A stretch of 64,000 nucleotides of DNA from Candidatus Thiothrix anitrata (lineage in GTDB: Bacteria > Pseudomonadota > Gammaproteobacteria > Thiotrichales > Thiotrichaceae), in contig NZ_CP072800.1 in NCBI RefSeq assembly GCF_017901155.1, positions 3,313,283 to 3,377,282 of the forward strand, given 5' to 3'. Below, one piece after another: positions 7,226-33,902 of this stretch. The notes under the pieces are model-generated. The model was not told the origin of the DNA and searched no databases. It was given only the letters and a program-made list of their open reading frames with translations. The stretch's first letter is position 1, and every line of letters begins with the position of its first letter. Position numbers and translations under genes: made by a program.

Positions 7226-8596
7226 ATGTCTGAACAAATCCCCCCTTACTCAAGCTCACCCCGCTATTTGTACACGCTGTTTCACTCGTTGGGGTTTCGT
7301 GCCATTAGCATCGCAGTCTTGACCCTGCTGATGCTGATCCCTTTGTTTATGGTGATGCAAGTCGTACAGGAACGGCAGGCATACCACAAAAATGTACTGG
7401 CGGAAGTCGCGGCAACTTGGGGACAACGCCAAACACTAATAGGCCCTGTATTGCTCGTGCCATATGTTGAGCATTTCACCAGTGTGGATACGGTAACGGA
7501 CAAAGACGGCGAATCCCGCATTGTCAGTAAAGACATTTACAAAGATCACATTGCAGTGCTATTGCCGGAAACCCTAGAAATCCGCGCTGATTTGGCACAG
7601 GAATACCGTCAGCGCGGCATTTACAATGCGCTGGTGTATAACGCGAATATCAGTGTTAATGGCACGTTTGACCATGCAGTGTTGCTAAAAGCCAGTGAAG
7701 GCGAACGCCGCCTCCAATGGGAAAAGGCTTATGTCATGTTTGGCATTGACGACCCCAAAGCCATTAGTAGCGCACCCGCGTTATTGTGGGGTGAAGAATC
7801 ACTTGCGTTAGAACCGGGCGCGGGAATGCCTAAATTGCTGGCAAACGGTTTCCATGCGTTACTGCCACCCGGCGAATACACGGACGGTGCTGCTCATCCC
7901 TTCAAACTCACCCTCAAATTGCATGGTAGTGATGGCCTATTTTTTGCCCCCGTGGGTAAAACCACCAAAGCTCGCATGAGTTCGGCTTGGACTACACCCA
8001 GCTTCCAAGGTGCATTATTCCCCAACACCCACGAAATCAACGCGCAAGGTTTTAACGCCGCATGGGATATTTCCCATTTAGTACGCAATTACCCACAATC
8101 GTGGATCGTATCCGACAATAAGACCCACGACTTGCGCAACTTCACCGCAGGAGTCAGCCTGTACGAAAGCTCATCGCTATACACTCAAGTCGACCGTGCG
8201 GTGAAATACGCCATTTTATTTGTGAGCTTGACGTTTTTGCTATTGTTTGCTTTTGAAATCAGCATGAAACGACGTTTGCACACGCTGCAATACGTGTTAG
8301 TGGGCTGTTCACTGGCATTGTTTTACCTAGTGTTATTGGCATTGGCGGAACATATCGGCTTTTTGTACGCTTATATTGCTGCCAGCAGCGTGACAGTATT
8401 GCCATTGACTTGGTATTTAGGCGCGATTTTACGCAATGCTTGGCGCACTATGAGCGTATTTACTGTGCTGGCATTACTGTATGGCTTGCTCTACCTGCTA
8501 TTGCAGATAGAGGATTACGCTTTACTGGTGGGTGTGGGCTTATTGGTCGGGGCAATGGGATTGATGATGCTCATCACCCGGCGTTTACCGAGCTGA
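7226..8596 (+). CDS. creD: CreD-family inner membrane protein
   Basis: This 456-residue protein has one N-terminal membrane helix (about 28-48), a large periplasmic domain containing RQTLIGPVLLVPY, and a C-terminal cluster of five or six helices starting near residue 330, the architecture of CreD (inner membrane protein, DUF4451-like). E. coli creD belongs to the CreBC regulon; no creB or creC is near here. AAGGATC precedes the ATG. It overlaps the convergent rhlB by 12 bp at the 3' end. Its molecular function is not established beyond envelope-linked phenotypes. Confidence 0.9.
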   Translation: MSEQIPPYSSSPRYLYTLFHSLGFRAISIAVLTLLMLIPLFMVMQVVQERQAYHKNVLAEVAATWGQRQTLIGPVLLVPYVEHFTSVDTVTDKDGESRIVSKDIYKDHIAVLLPETLEIRADLAQEYRQRGIYNALVYNANISVNGTFDHAVLLKASEGERRLQWEKAYVMFGIDDPKAISSAPALLWGEESLALEPGAGMPKLLANGFHALLPPGEYTDGAAHPFKLTLKLHGSDGLFFAPVGKTTKARMSSAWTTPSFQGALFPNTHEINAQGFNAAWDISHLVRNYPQSWIVSDNKTHDLRNFTAGVSLYESSSLYTQVDRAVKYAILFVSLTFLLLFAFEISMKRRLHTLQYVLVGCSLALFYLVLLALAEHIGFLYAYIAASSVTVLPLTWYLGAILRNAWRTMSVFTVLALLYGLLYLLLQIEDYALLVGVGLLVGAMGLMMLITRRLPS

Positions 8597-9877
8597 AGGA
8601 CGATTACCGCGTGACCCATTATTATTGCGACGCGGCGGCGGGCGTTTATCACCACCATGATGATGCGGCGCACGTTCGCGCTGCTGGCGTTGCGGACGTA
8701 CCAAATCCGTTGCTAATAAGGTATTAGTGATTTTCGTCACCGGGATTGATTTGCCCGTGTATTCTTCAATCTCCGGCAAATAAAACGCGGTATCTTCACA
8801 CGCAAAACTGTGCGCTTCACCCGAAGCCCCAGCCCGCGCAGTACGCCCAATCCGATGCACGTAATCTTCCGCCATTTGCGGTAAATCGAAGTTAAACACA
8901 TGGCTAACATCAGGAATATGCAACCCACGTGCCGCCACGTCGGTCGCAATCAATACCTGAAACTGCCCTGCTTCAAAATCTTTCAGCAGCCGCTCACGTT
9001 TATTCTGACGCACATCACCGGAAATCAAATCCGAGGTAATACCATTGCCACGCAAGTAATCATCAATTTTTTCCGCAATGTGTTTGGTATTCACAAACAC
9101 AATCGCCCGAAACGGGGTCAATTGCCGAATCAGCCCAATCAATAACGGAATTTTTTCTTCATTGGCGGGAAAATACACATGTTCCACAATATTATCAGCA
9201 CGCACCGATTCCGCTTCGATTTGTACTTTTTGCGGGTTGTTCATGTGCTCATAAGCCAGTTCCAACACCCGGTGTGAGAGTGTTGCAGAAAACAGCATAT
9301 TTAAACGTTTATCCGGTGCAGGCAGTTTGCGCATTAAGTAGCGCACATCCTGAATAAAGCCCATGTCAAACATGCGATCTGCTTCATCCATAACTAACGC
9401 CTGCAACTGTTTGAGGGTAAAAACATGCTGTTTCCAGTAATCAATCACCCGCCCCGGCGTACCAATCAGCACATCCACCGGTTGTTCAAATTGCCGCCGC
9501 TGTTTATCGTAACCCGCACCACCGTAAACCAATACAGTCCGTAACCCGGTGTGCTGCCCCAGACTTTCCGCATCACGGGCAATCTGAATCGCTAACTCAC
9601 GGGTAGGGGCTAAAATCATGCAGCGCACTGTGCCCGATTCCGCATTTACCAACGGGTTACGTAGCAAATGCTGGAACACTGCCACCAAAAACGCACCGGT
9701 TTTACCTGTACCAGTTTGTGCTTGCCCCGCTACATCCTGCCCTGCCAATGCCAACGGCAACACTTCGGCTTGAATCCGTGAGCAATACTCAAAACCAGCA
9801 TCACGCAATGATGCCAATAAACCTTCATCCAAAGCGAATGAATCGAAACGTGTTTGACTTAAGTAGAAATTTTCCAT
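8585..9877 (-). CDS. rhlB: DEAD-box ATP-dependent RNA helicase RhlB
   Basis: The 430 residues follow E. coli RhlB closely: Q-motif region FEYCSRIQAEVLPL, Walker A AQTGTGKT, PTRELAIQ, motif II DEAD in VMDEADRMFDMGF, SAT in FSATLSHRVLELA, and ATDVAARGLHIPDVSHVFN with HRIGRTARAG. The C-terminal tail is basic and rich in Arg, Pro and His, as in RNA-binding tails of DEAD-box proteins. In E. coli RhlB unwinds RNA in the RNase E degradosome. It ends inside the 3' end of creD on the opposite strand. Confidence 0.92.
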   Translation of the reverse strand: MENFYLSQTRFDSFALDEGLLASLRDAGFEYCSRIQAEVLPLALAGQDVAGQAQTGTGKTGAFLVAVFQHLLRNPLVNAESGTVRCMILAPTRELAIQIARDAESLGQHTGLRTVLVYGGAGYDKQRRQFEQPVDVLIGTPGRVIDYWKQHVFTLKQLQALVMDEADRMFDMGFIQDVRYLMRKLPAPDKRLNMLFSATLSHRVLELAYEHMNNPQKVQIEAESVRADNIVEHVYFPANEEKIPLLIGLIRQLTPFRAIVFVNTKHIAEKIDDYLRGNGITSDLISGDVRQNKRERLLKDFEAGQFQVLIATDVAARGLHIPDVSHVFNFDLPQMAEDYVHRIGRTARAGASGEAHSFACEDTAFYLPEIEEYTGKSIPVTKITNTLLATDLVRPQRQQRERAPHHHGGDKRPPPRRNNNGSRGNRPSAR

Positions 9878-9965: not shown

Positions 9966-10101
9966 TTGTCGACAACCAAAAAACAACTGTCGACAATAAT
10001 TACAAAAATTTACTCAAACTATTAACAAATCCTTCTAAAAGTCGACAATATGACTTAATATAACGCGCCTCCTTATCACGATAAGTTAACTTTGTCGACA
10101 T
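9966..10101. promoter_or_regulatory. Four phased TTGTCGACAA-type palindromes upstream of pckA
   Basis: Four copies of a TGTCGACA core lie in the gap between rhlB and pckA: TTGTCGACAA at 9966-9975, CTGTCGACAA at 9987-9996, AGTCGACAAT at 10040-10049 and TTGTCGACAT at 10092-10101. Core centres are 21, 52 and 53 bp apart, which is two, five and five turns of B-DNA, so all four face the same side of the helix. TATAAC at 10059-10064 is a possible -10 element between the third and fourth copies. The most proximal copy ends 23 bp before the pckA start. An operator array for an unidentified regulator is inferred. Confidence 0.6.
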
Positions 10102-10124: not shown

Positions 10125-11738
10125 ATGAGTACAACAGCTATCTTGGCAGACTACCTAGCAAACACACACGGTCTGGGCAAGTTGCAAAACATTCACTGGA
10201 ACCAATCTTCCCCCGTCCTGTATGAACAAGCCCTCGTGCGTAACGAAGGCAAAATCAGCGCAGAGGGCGTTTTCGTGGCTTACACTGGCGCATTTACCGG
10301 ACGCGCCCCCAACGATAAATTCATTGTGGATGACGCTGGCAGCCACGATAAAGTGTGGTGGGGCAAGGTCAACAAAGGCATGACTGAAGCGCATTTCGAG
10401 CGCATTCTCAACGATGCACAACAATTCTTGGCGGGTAAGGAAGTCTTTGTTCAAGATTTGCTAGCGGGTGCGAATGAAACCGATGAACTGCCGGTACGCG
10501 TCATCACCCAATACGCATGGCACGCGCTGTTTGCACGTAACATGTTCATACGTCCTGACGACTTGAACCGTCAACTCGCTGTTGATGAACCCAAATTCAC
10601 CGTGATTCACGTCCCGGATATGCAGGCTGACCCAGCAACACACGGCACTTATTCCAATGCCTTCGTCTTACTGAATTTGTCACGTGGCTTGATTTTGATT
10701 GGCGGCACGCATTATGCGGGTGAAATCAAAAAATCCATTTTCTCGGTACTGAATTACCTATTACCACAGCGCGGTATTATGTCAATGCACGCCTCCGCGA
10801 ATGTCGGCAAGGCTGGTGATGTAGCCATTCTGTTCGGGCTTTCCGGCACGGGTAAAACCACCCTATCTGCTGATCCGAACCGCGCTTTGATTGGTGATGA
10901 TGAGCACGGCTGGAGTCATGACGGCGTATTTAATCTCGAAGGTGGCTGCTACGCTAAAGTTATTAATTTATCAGCTGAACAAGAACCACTGATTTACAAA
11001 ACCACGCAAACTTTCGGGACAGTACTCGAAAACGTGGTGATGGATCCGACCACTCGCAAACTCAATCTTGATGACAACAGCCTCACGGAAAACACCCGCG
11101 CCAGCTATCCGATCACACAAATTCCGGGCGCGTTGTACCCCGGTAAAGCGGGGCATCCTAAACACATTATTATGCTGACTTGTGATGCGTTCGGGGTATT
11201 ACCACCGATTTCCAAACTCACGACCGAACAGGCGATGTATCACTTCATTTCCGGTTATACCGCGAAAGTCGCCGGTACAGAAAAAGGCGTGACCGAACCA
11301 ACAGCAACCTTCAGCACCTGTTTTGGTGCGCCATTCATGGCTTTGCATCCTTCAGTTTACGCGGGTTTGTTGGGGCAAAAAATAAATGAGCACGGGGTTT
11401 CTTGCTGGCTGGTTAATACCGGCTGGAGCGGTGGCAGCTATGGTGTGGGCAAACGCATGAATATTCATCACACTCGCAGCATGGTCAATGCCGCGTTGAA
11501 CGGCGATCTGGATGCGGTCGCAATGCGTGTCGATCCTATTTTCGGCCTGCATATTCCAGTGACCTGCCCGAATGTCCCGGATGATGTGCTCGACCCCGCG
11601 TCCACATGGGCGGATGCAGATGCCTACCACGCCAAAGCCACCCAATTGGCAACGGCCTTCCATCAAAACTTTGCCAGCTATAGCGACGGCGTATCCGCAG
11701 AGATTATTAACGCATCGCCATTGGCGGGACGCGCTTAA
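10125..11738 (+). CDS. pckA: Phosphoenolpyruvate carboxykinase (ATP)
   Basis: The 537-residue enzyme converts oxaloacetate and ATP to PEP, CO2 and ADP, the gluconeogenic step. It has the ATP-type signatures: GAFTGRAPNDKFIV near the start, GTHYAGEIKKSIFSVLNY, the P-loop GLSGTGKTTLS at about residues 238-248, LIGDDEHGW, EGGCYAK, and AFGVLPPISKL. I place the start at ATG 10125 behind CGGAGG rather than the longer frame, which begins inside the last TGTCGACA palindrome. The gene has its own operator-like array upstream and a strong terminator downstream, so it is probably monocistronic. Confidence 0.96.
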   Translation: MSTTAILADYLANTHGLGKLQNIHWNQSSPVLYEQALVRNEGKISAEGVFVAYTGAFTGRAPNDKFIVDDAGSHDKVWWGKVNKGMTEAHFERILNDAQQFLAGKEVFVQDLLAGANETDELPVRVITQYAWHALFARNMFIRPDDLNRQLAVDEPKFTVIHVPDMQADPATHGTYSNAFVLLNLSRGLILIGGTHYAGEIKKSIFSVLNYLLPQRGIMSMHASANVGKAGDVAILFGLSGTGKTTLSADPNRALIGDDEHGWSHDGVFNLEGGCYAKVINLSAEQEPLIYKTTQTFGTVLENVVMDPTTRKLNLDDNSLTENTRASYPITQIPGALYPGKAGHPKHIIMLTCDAFGVLPPISKLTTEQAMYHFISGYTAKVAGTEKGVTEPTATFSTCFGAPFMALHPSVYAGLLGQKINEHGVSCWLVNTGWSGGSYGVGKRMNIHHTRSMVNAALNGDLDAVAMRVDPIFGLHIPVTCPNVPDDVLDPASTWADADAYHAKATQLATAFHQNFASYSDGVSAEIINASPLAGRA

Positions 11739-33479: not shown

Positions 33480-33902
33480 TCAATCGAAACGCTTACGCAG
33501 CTTCTGATACAGGCTGGAAATCTCCTCGCCTAACTCGTGCAGTTCTTCCATGACCTCAAAGCGCACATCCTCAATCTTGTCGACAACTTTATGCTGTAAC
33601 TTGTCCACATCTTCACCAAGATCGTGAATTTCCTCTTTCGCTTTCAGGTGCAGTTCCCAAGTTTTAGCAGCGGCTTCTTGTTTGAACTCGCGCAGCTCTT
33701 CTTCGACGTCCTCGATCAAACCACCGGCCTTGCTTGCCAATTCAAGACCTGCCTCACGCAATTGCAGTTGCACCTTATCCCAACGCTGCTCAGTTTCATC
33801 CCACAGCTTGTGAAAATCTTCACTACCATGCGGCAGACGCTCCTGAAACTCCGCACGTTCGGTTTTCAGTTTGTTCAGTAGTTGCTCTAGTTTCTCGTGC
33901 AT
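33480..33902 (-). CDS. Coiled-coil protein of unknown function
   Basis: The 140-residue acidic protein is nearly all heptad-like helix (EKLEQLLNKLKTERAEFQE, then VEEELREFKQEAAAK and VMEELHELGEEISSLYQKL). No signal peptide or membrane segment. GGAGGG precedes the ATG. It resembles apolipoprotein-like or phasin-like coiled coils but I do not recognise the family. Its 5' end and promoter are duplicated near 35.7 kb, where the coding copy is broken. It converges with the YihY gene, 8 bp apart. Confidence 0.75.
   Translation of the reverse strand: MHEKLEQLLNKLKTERAEFQERLPHGSEDFHKLWDETEQRWDKVQLQLREAGLELASKAGGLIEDVEEELREFKQEAAAKTWELHLKAKEEIHDLGEDVDKLQHKVVDKIEDVRFEVMEELHELGEEISSLYQKLRKRFD

Follow-up and report, generated by a model that had tools for sequence, protein, structure and literature searches.

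What binds the four palindromes that precede the phosphoenolpyruvate carboxykinase gene pckA in this Thiothrix genome, and what would such binding control? We analyzed the whole stretch of DNA around them (the window), which covers 64 kb of the 3.55-Mb chromosome, together with related genomes of the genus and the order. A preliminary description had located the palindromes at spacings of 21, 52 and 53 bp from centre to centre, with 23 bp between the last one and the start codon of pckA, and all of this, including the identity of the gene, was recovered when the centres were recomputed and the protein was scored (Table 1). It had also treated the four as alike; four are indeed present, but only the first is the full TTGTCGACAA, and whilst operators 1, 2 and 4 have the core TGTCGACA, the core of operator 3 is AGTCGACA. 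The position of operator 3 inside the likely pckA promoter had been missed. The reading that we favor, with a probability of about 80%, is that the palindromes are operators of a GntR/FCD paralog of the PrpR/PmiR type, which represses the TCA cycle, the glyoxylate shunt, gluconeogenesis and one PHA synthase.

Table 1. Features before pckA and the gene of the candidate regulator (window positions, unless a contig of the own genome is named; distances are from the guessed pckA start site).
Feature	Position	Strand	Description
Operator 1, TTGTCGACAA	9966..9975	.	centre 9970.5, about -97; 14/16 genus genomes (not G002, G011)
Operator 2, CTGTCGACAA	9987..9996	.	centre 9991.5, about -76; 15/16 genus genomes (not G011)
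Operator 3, AAGTCGACAA	10039..10048	.	centre 10043.5, about -24, inside the guessed -35/-10 spacer; AGTCRACA in 15/16 genus genomes (not G002)
Operator 4, TTGTCGACAT	10092..10101	.	centre 10096.5, about +29; 16/16 genus genomes, as TTGTTGACAT in G010
Guessed pckA -35, TTCTAA	10033..10038	+	weak consensus match, by eye; also present in G002, where operator 3 is absent
Guessed pckA -10, TAATAT	10056..10061	+	17 bp after TTCTAA, by eye; a TATNAT-like hexamer in relatives, for example TATTAT, TATCAT, TACTAT or TACCAT
pckA, ATP-dependent phosphoenolpyruvate carboxykinase	10125..11738	+	TIGR00224, 718.6 bits (cutoff 590); ortholog in 16/16 genus genomes
GntR/FCD regulator gene	G000:C1:1936981-1937682	minus	divergent from sucA, upstream of sdh genes

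Chance clustering of the pckA palindromes is excluded by Markov simulation: none of 20,000 first-order versions of the 247-bp gap before pckA held four GTCGAC, and three or more were reached in a fraction of only 5e-5. The array is unusual in its clustering and placement, not in the copy number of the 8-mer. Genome-wide, 50 copies of TGTCGACA were observed, and with about 42 expected from the window's Markov model we dropped over-representation as evidence; within the window, TTGTCGACAA with up to two mismatches gave 36 matches compared with 33.4 in shuffles, which is no excess. Placement is different, with 17 of the 50 genomic sites intergenic as against very roughly 9% of the window outside ORFs of at least 100 amino acids. 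These 17 comprise 14 assigned by the ORF caller and three that we reassigned by hand, which had fallen inside a spurious 72 amino acid ORF or inside 5'-extended sucB and pckA ORFs. On the other side of the array, divergent from pckA, lies a DEAD-box RNA helicase gene (window 8585-9877), the start of which is seen by eye upstream of pckA in 14 of the 16 genus genomes (not G002 and G013). In G008, pckA itself is split, as if by an insertion, into two pieces (L044 and L045; query residues 1-373 and 370-536) that lie about 1.27 kb from each other.

Conservation of the array before pckA in relatives, which the preliminary description had named as a check, is clear throughout the genus. At least two sites are present in 16/16 genomes and all four in 14/16, with spacings of 21-22, 52 and 52-53 bp, and the PckA proteins of the genomes with the conserved array are 80-93% identical to the own PckA. 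The two exceptions are G011, which keeps operators 3 and 4, and G002, which keeps operators 2 and 4, 105 bp apart. In the sister genera (g7/g8) two sites were found in four of seven pckA upstream regions, 52 bp apart in G058 and G062, 105 bp in G053 and 151 bp in G054; the other three (G055, G057, G060) have no site despite the presence of the regulator that is described below. Where the regulator is absent (g2, g3 and g5) there is no site in five of six pckA upstream regions, and G027 has a single TGTTGACA. Since the pckA of these groups belongs to a different subtype (48-51% identity), this near absence is weak evidence, and sucA upstream regions were therefore compared instead.

The spacing of the sites was then taken over the pckA, gntR, aceA and prpR promoters, using a relaxed pattern and distinct neighbour spacings of up to 110 bp, each counted once per promoter class (20, 21, 22, 36, 38, 52, 53, 63, 73, 74, 75, 87, 96, 104 and 105 bp; n=24 values). 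These fit a period of 10.5 bp with R = 0.71 and a phase of 9 degrees, a result that none of 20,000 random spacing sets reached with a phase within 30 degrees, the values being not fully independent through homologous promoters and sums of spacings. Spacings of 36, 38, 87, 111 and 151 bp are out of phase, and those of 111, 151, 297 and 308 bp stand outside the statistic. A pair of operators 52/53 bp apart recurs at pckA, gntR, aceA and sucB; in the own genome the two TGTCGACA sites of sucB are 52 bp apart, and in Thiofilum sucB and sdhC are each preceded by a pair, with spacings of 52 and 95 bp. Looping of the DNA between the sites, as had been proposed, is not shown by these data: a spacing of 52/53 bp leaves little room for a free loop, and the phasing is as expected for any binding from a single side of the helix. 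In G004 and G005 (L083 and L090) prpR is preceded by a second TTGTCAACAA, six turns (63 bp) farther upstream than the first, and from this pair the phasing rule may hold for PrpR too.

Which other genes carry the palindrome? In the own genome the intergenic TGTCGACA sites lie before pckA (three), aceA, mqo, glcB, sucB (two), lipA, nqrA, the monomeric icd, a class I PHA synthase, a gene pair for a DUF4212 protein and a VC_2705-type sodium/solute symporter, and a 101 amino acid ORF with no Pfam family, with three more in the gap between sucA and the regulator gene. The sites of mqo, lipA, nqrA and the symporter are known from the own genome alone; others were followed through the genus by the presence of TGTCRACA within 300 bp upstream. 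By this measure pckA, aceA, glcB and the gntR-sucA gap carry it in 16/16 genomes each, icd in 12 of the 13 genomes that have an ortholog and phaC in 8 of 12, as compared with 0/6 and 0/5 before paralogs of icd and phaC, and with a background of 36 matches in 360,334 bp, that is, 0.03 per 300 bp. The palindrome is thus present upstream of other carbon-metabolism genes, where the preliminary description had advised looking, and together with the conservation before pckA this supports its idea that the phased sites serve a dedicated regulator of carbon metabolism. A TTGTCGACAA at window position 33577 was left out of the regulon, as it lies inside a 140 amino acid ORF. Two copies of ATGTCGACAA were also seen. 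One (L056:3025, G000:C1:1529524) stands about 130 bp before a 116 amino acid ORF with no NCBIfam match, which we take to resemble AtpI and which adjoins an ORF that presumably resembles an ATP synthase subunit; it could possibly be a further member of the regulon. The other (L052:2470, G000:C1:804469) falls within the ORF of a 396 amino acid TIR-domain protein, 59 nt past its called start, possibly by chance or because that start is mis-called.

The gap with three sites points to a candidate for the DNA-binding protein. Between sucA and sdhC lies the gene of a 234 amino acid protein with a GntR plus FCD layout (Table 1): an N-terminal GntR winged helix-turn-helix (PF00392, 54.9 bits, cutoff 27) and a C-terminal FCD ligand domain (PF07729, 96.7 bits, cutoff 24.3). 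Downstream of it are sdhC and sdhA, both identified by NCBIfam, with a 136 amino acid ORF between them where sdhD would be expected. This gene is preceded by five strict sites (about -189, -114, -92, -39 and -19) in 15 of the 16 genus genomes and by four in G002, and the -39 site comes immediately after a TATTAT. Orthologs with at least 69% identity were found in 25 of 63 order genomes, comprising all 16 of the genus (79-100%) and nine of g7/g8, and in eight of the nine named g7/g8 loci (two of them on contigs shorter than 5 kb) no sdh or suc gene is near. Among 18 regulator loci, 16 belong to Thiothrix, Thiolinea, Thiofilum, uncultured Thiotrichaceae and two broader MAGs, and two to Acinetobacter (46%). 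In G003 (L070) the open frame of the regulator match contains one in-frame TAA.

The best sequence and structural match of the regulator is PmiR of P. aeruginosa (49-50% identity); we take PmiR to be PA0797. An AlphaFold model of the regulator (pLDDT 78, pTM 0.70) has PmiR (7xp0/7xp1) as its nearest solved structure, with a TM-score of 0.92-0.93 by target length and 0.78-0.80 by query. The preliminary description knew of no named regulator with this site; however, the palindrome is already known, since for PrpR of P. aeruginosa (PA0797), a member of the GntR family, ATTGTCGACAAT was published as a predicted motif, and that paper also describes an EMSA with the PrpR upstream region and, by genetics, repression of prp by PrpR (PMC9765439). 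Our sites keep mostly 8-10 of the 12 bases of ATTGTCGACAAT, the outer A/T being less strict. The two systems agree in DNA motif, in domain layout and in having the motif before the regulator's own gene. They differ in that PrpR/PmiR is a repressor of the 2-methylcitrate cycle, whereas the gene of the regulator here is not part of a prp operon but adjoins sucA and sdh, and the regulator has several predicted phased operators and has probable targets in the TCA cycle, the glyoxylate shunt and gluconeogenesis.

How could such a protein act at pckA? A paralog of the methylcitrate-cycle repressor would have kept its TTGTCRACAA target and come to serve new genes. Its dimers at about -97, -76, -24 and +29 would all bind from the same side of the helix and jointly block RNA polymerase. 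Binding of a tricarboxylate, for instance isocitrate or citrate, to the FCD domain would then release the repressor from the DNA and open the regulon for growth on organic acids. As for the ligand, Y89, R92, E93, E96, H142, N151, R167, R170, H187, R207 and H209 are invariant in an alignment of 30 regulator and PrpR-like sequences and D138 is nearly so, and H142, H187, H209 and D138 are presumably the metal-site pattern of FCD proteins. Cui and colleagues (2022) reportedly described the sensing of 2-methylisocitrate by PmiR, and Suvorova and colleagues are said to be the likely source of the PrpR motif (2012). Because the FCD residues are common to the regulator and the PrpR-like proteins, isocitrate or citrate, which resemble 2-methylisocitrate, would be the most obvious candidates; going by the titles of structure entries, the crystal of a VanR relative contains a fortuitous citrate.

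Another question that is raised by the operator positions is the sign of the regulation. By eye, the -10-like hexamers at gntR, lipA, glcB and prpR are overlapped by an operator or have one close downstream, and at pckA one lies in the spacer, so that repression is favored. One option is that the same regulator acts in a dual or activating way, the upstream pair at pckA (-97 and -76) recruiting RNA polymerase and the inner sites modulating. This would suit icd, whose operator lies tens of bp upstream of a likely -10 (by eye); there, and at some other genes with an operator well upstream, activation is just as probable. It would also suit aceA, with sites about 91-296 bp ahead of its start codon. 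We nevertheless consider it rather unlikely for the regulon as a whole, as operators that fall between -35 and -10, cover the -10 or come shortly after it have the geometry of a repressor, and PrpR of Pseudomonas is a repressor as well.

Repression by a PrpR/PmiR-type paralog has then to be weighed against repression by PrpR itself. The own genome also encodes a PrpR-like GntR, followed by prpB, prpC, acnD and a 424 amino acid ORF that by its position we take to be prpF, and TTGTCRACAA precedes prpR in all 14 genus loci examined. It could be, therefore, that the canonical methylcitrate-cycle repressor, whose Pseudomonas counterpart has the published motif, also controls pckA and the TCA cycle, and that the sdh/suc-linked GntR does something else. 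The PrpR-like GntR is about 44% identical to the sdh/suc-linked regulator, a second match of this kind (42-45%) is present in 16/16 genus genomes, and in an unrooted tree, calculated without PmiR, 17 regulator rows are split from 13 PrpR-like rows by one branch with a support of 100/99. The comparison that discriminates between the two concerns genomes that lack the sdh/suc-linked regulator. We searched 30 such genomes of the order for sucA, 28 of which gave a match, and 27 loci (26 genomes) had at least 150 bp upstream; TGTCRACA was found before sucA in none of these 27. Seven of the 26 genomes (G016, G018, G025, G026, G027, G040 and G045) have a PrpR-like GntR (40-46%), with G018, G027 and G040 placed with PrpR in the tree and the others by identity alone, and in all seven TTGTCGACAA has fewer matches than its control. 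More generally, exact TTGTCGACAA is commoner than its reversed control in 24 of 25 regulator carriers and in 3 of 38 others, a comparison in which the control is weak because its dinucleotide make-up differs and in which G056 (67% complete) counts as a non-carrier. Two carriers are weak themselves, G061 with one exact TTGTCGACAA and 21 control matches and G058 with 14 and 13. Taken with the five sites of the regulator gene itself, these data make control by PrpR improbable. As PrpR is present in the same cells and should recognise a very similar site, cross-talk between the two is possible.

That the palindromes are chance or a non-transcriptional by-product, such as GTCGAC sites for methylation or restriction, or CG-centred palindromes of a generic kind, would fit their ordinary numbers in the genome and the window and the TTGTCGACAA copies in genomes with no regulator, but is hardly credible given the conserved sites and spacing and their placement before one part of metabolism and not before gene paralogs.

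Several known systems invite comparison with the GntR/FCD regulator. LldR of E. coli, a FadR-subfamily regulator, has two distant paired operators around its promoter, and differs in ligand, motif and spacing. With 2 nt between GT and AC, TTGT-CR-ACAA fits the TKGT/ACMA operator class of the FadR subfamily (2-3 nt), and PMC4494728 places PrpR, MdcY and UxuR in this class with 2 nt. The same paper assigns SdhR, a GntR-type protein whose name links it to sdh, to the HutC subfamily, with a 26-bp palindrome TCTTATGTCTTATATAAGACATAAGA, and we rejected it as a match (PMC4494728). The ACTU motif of CrbS/CrbR is likewise an inverted repeat, found before acetate-utilisation genes of Gammaproteobacteria; CrbR belongs to the LuxR family, and the matched sequences given for the motif, such as TACTACCATCGTCGAAT, do not contain the TGTCGACA palindrome when compared by eye with the pckA sites (PMC5715377), so it too was rejected. 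A partial precedent for a wider role of a PrpR-like GntR in energy metabolism may be NMB1563 of N. meningitidis, likened here by its description: deletion of this GntR-like protein changed 141 genes (110 up, 31 down), the NMB0429-prpB-prpC operon among them, and it belongs with the sRNA Bns1 to one energy-metabolism network (PMC4423775). Among the titles listed for TTGTCGACAA there was no such regulator, TGTCGACA as a whole word gave unrelated topics only, no Thiothrix paper was among the matches listed for Thiothrix with GntR and TCA terms, and none among those listed for GntR with TCA-cycle genes, where few subscription journals are covered, described one. A PrpR/PmiR-like paralog with a TCA, glyoxylate and gluconeogenesis regulon was thus not found described among the matches listed, and this use appears new.

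A broader reading, which we offer tentatively and to which we give somewhat less than even odds, is that in the Thiothrix family a PrpR-like repressor was recruited from propionate catabolism as a master repressor of the oxidative TCA cycle, the glyoxylate shunt, gluconeogenesis, lipoylation and PHB synthesis, which would sense isocitrate or citrate in the 2-methylisocitrate pocket of PmiR and use operators five turns (52/53 bp) apart as a standard module. If this were true, one metabolite would set the balance between lithotrophy and heterotrophy. The recurring 52/53-bp pair at promoters of different genes allows cooperation between FCD-type GntR dimers to be tested cleanly, and PrpR and the regulator, with near-identical operators in one cell, offer a natural case for cross-talk of paralogous repressors. 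For the filamentous sulfur bacteria of this genus, the finding gives a testable candidate for a master regulator of central carbon metabolism, and it would illustrate how a repressor that was substrate-specific can turn near-global whilst its DNA site is retained.
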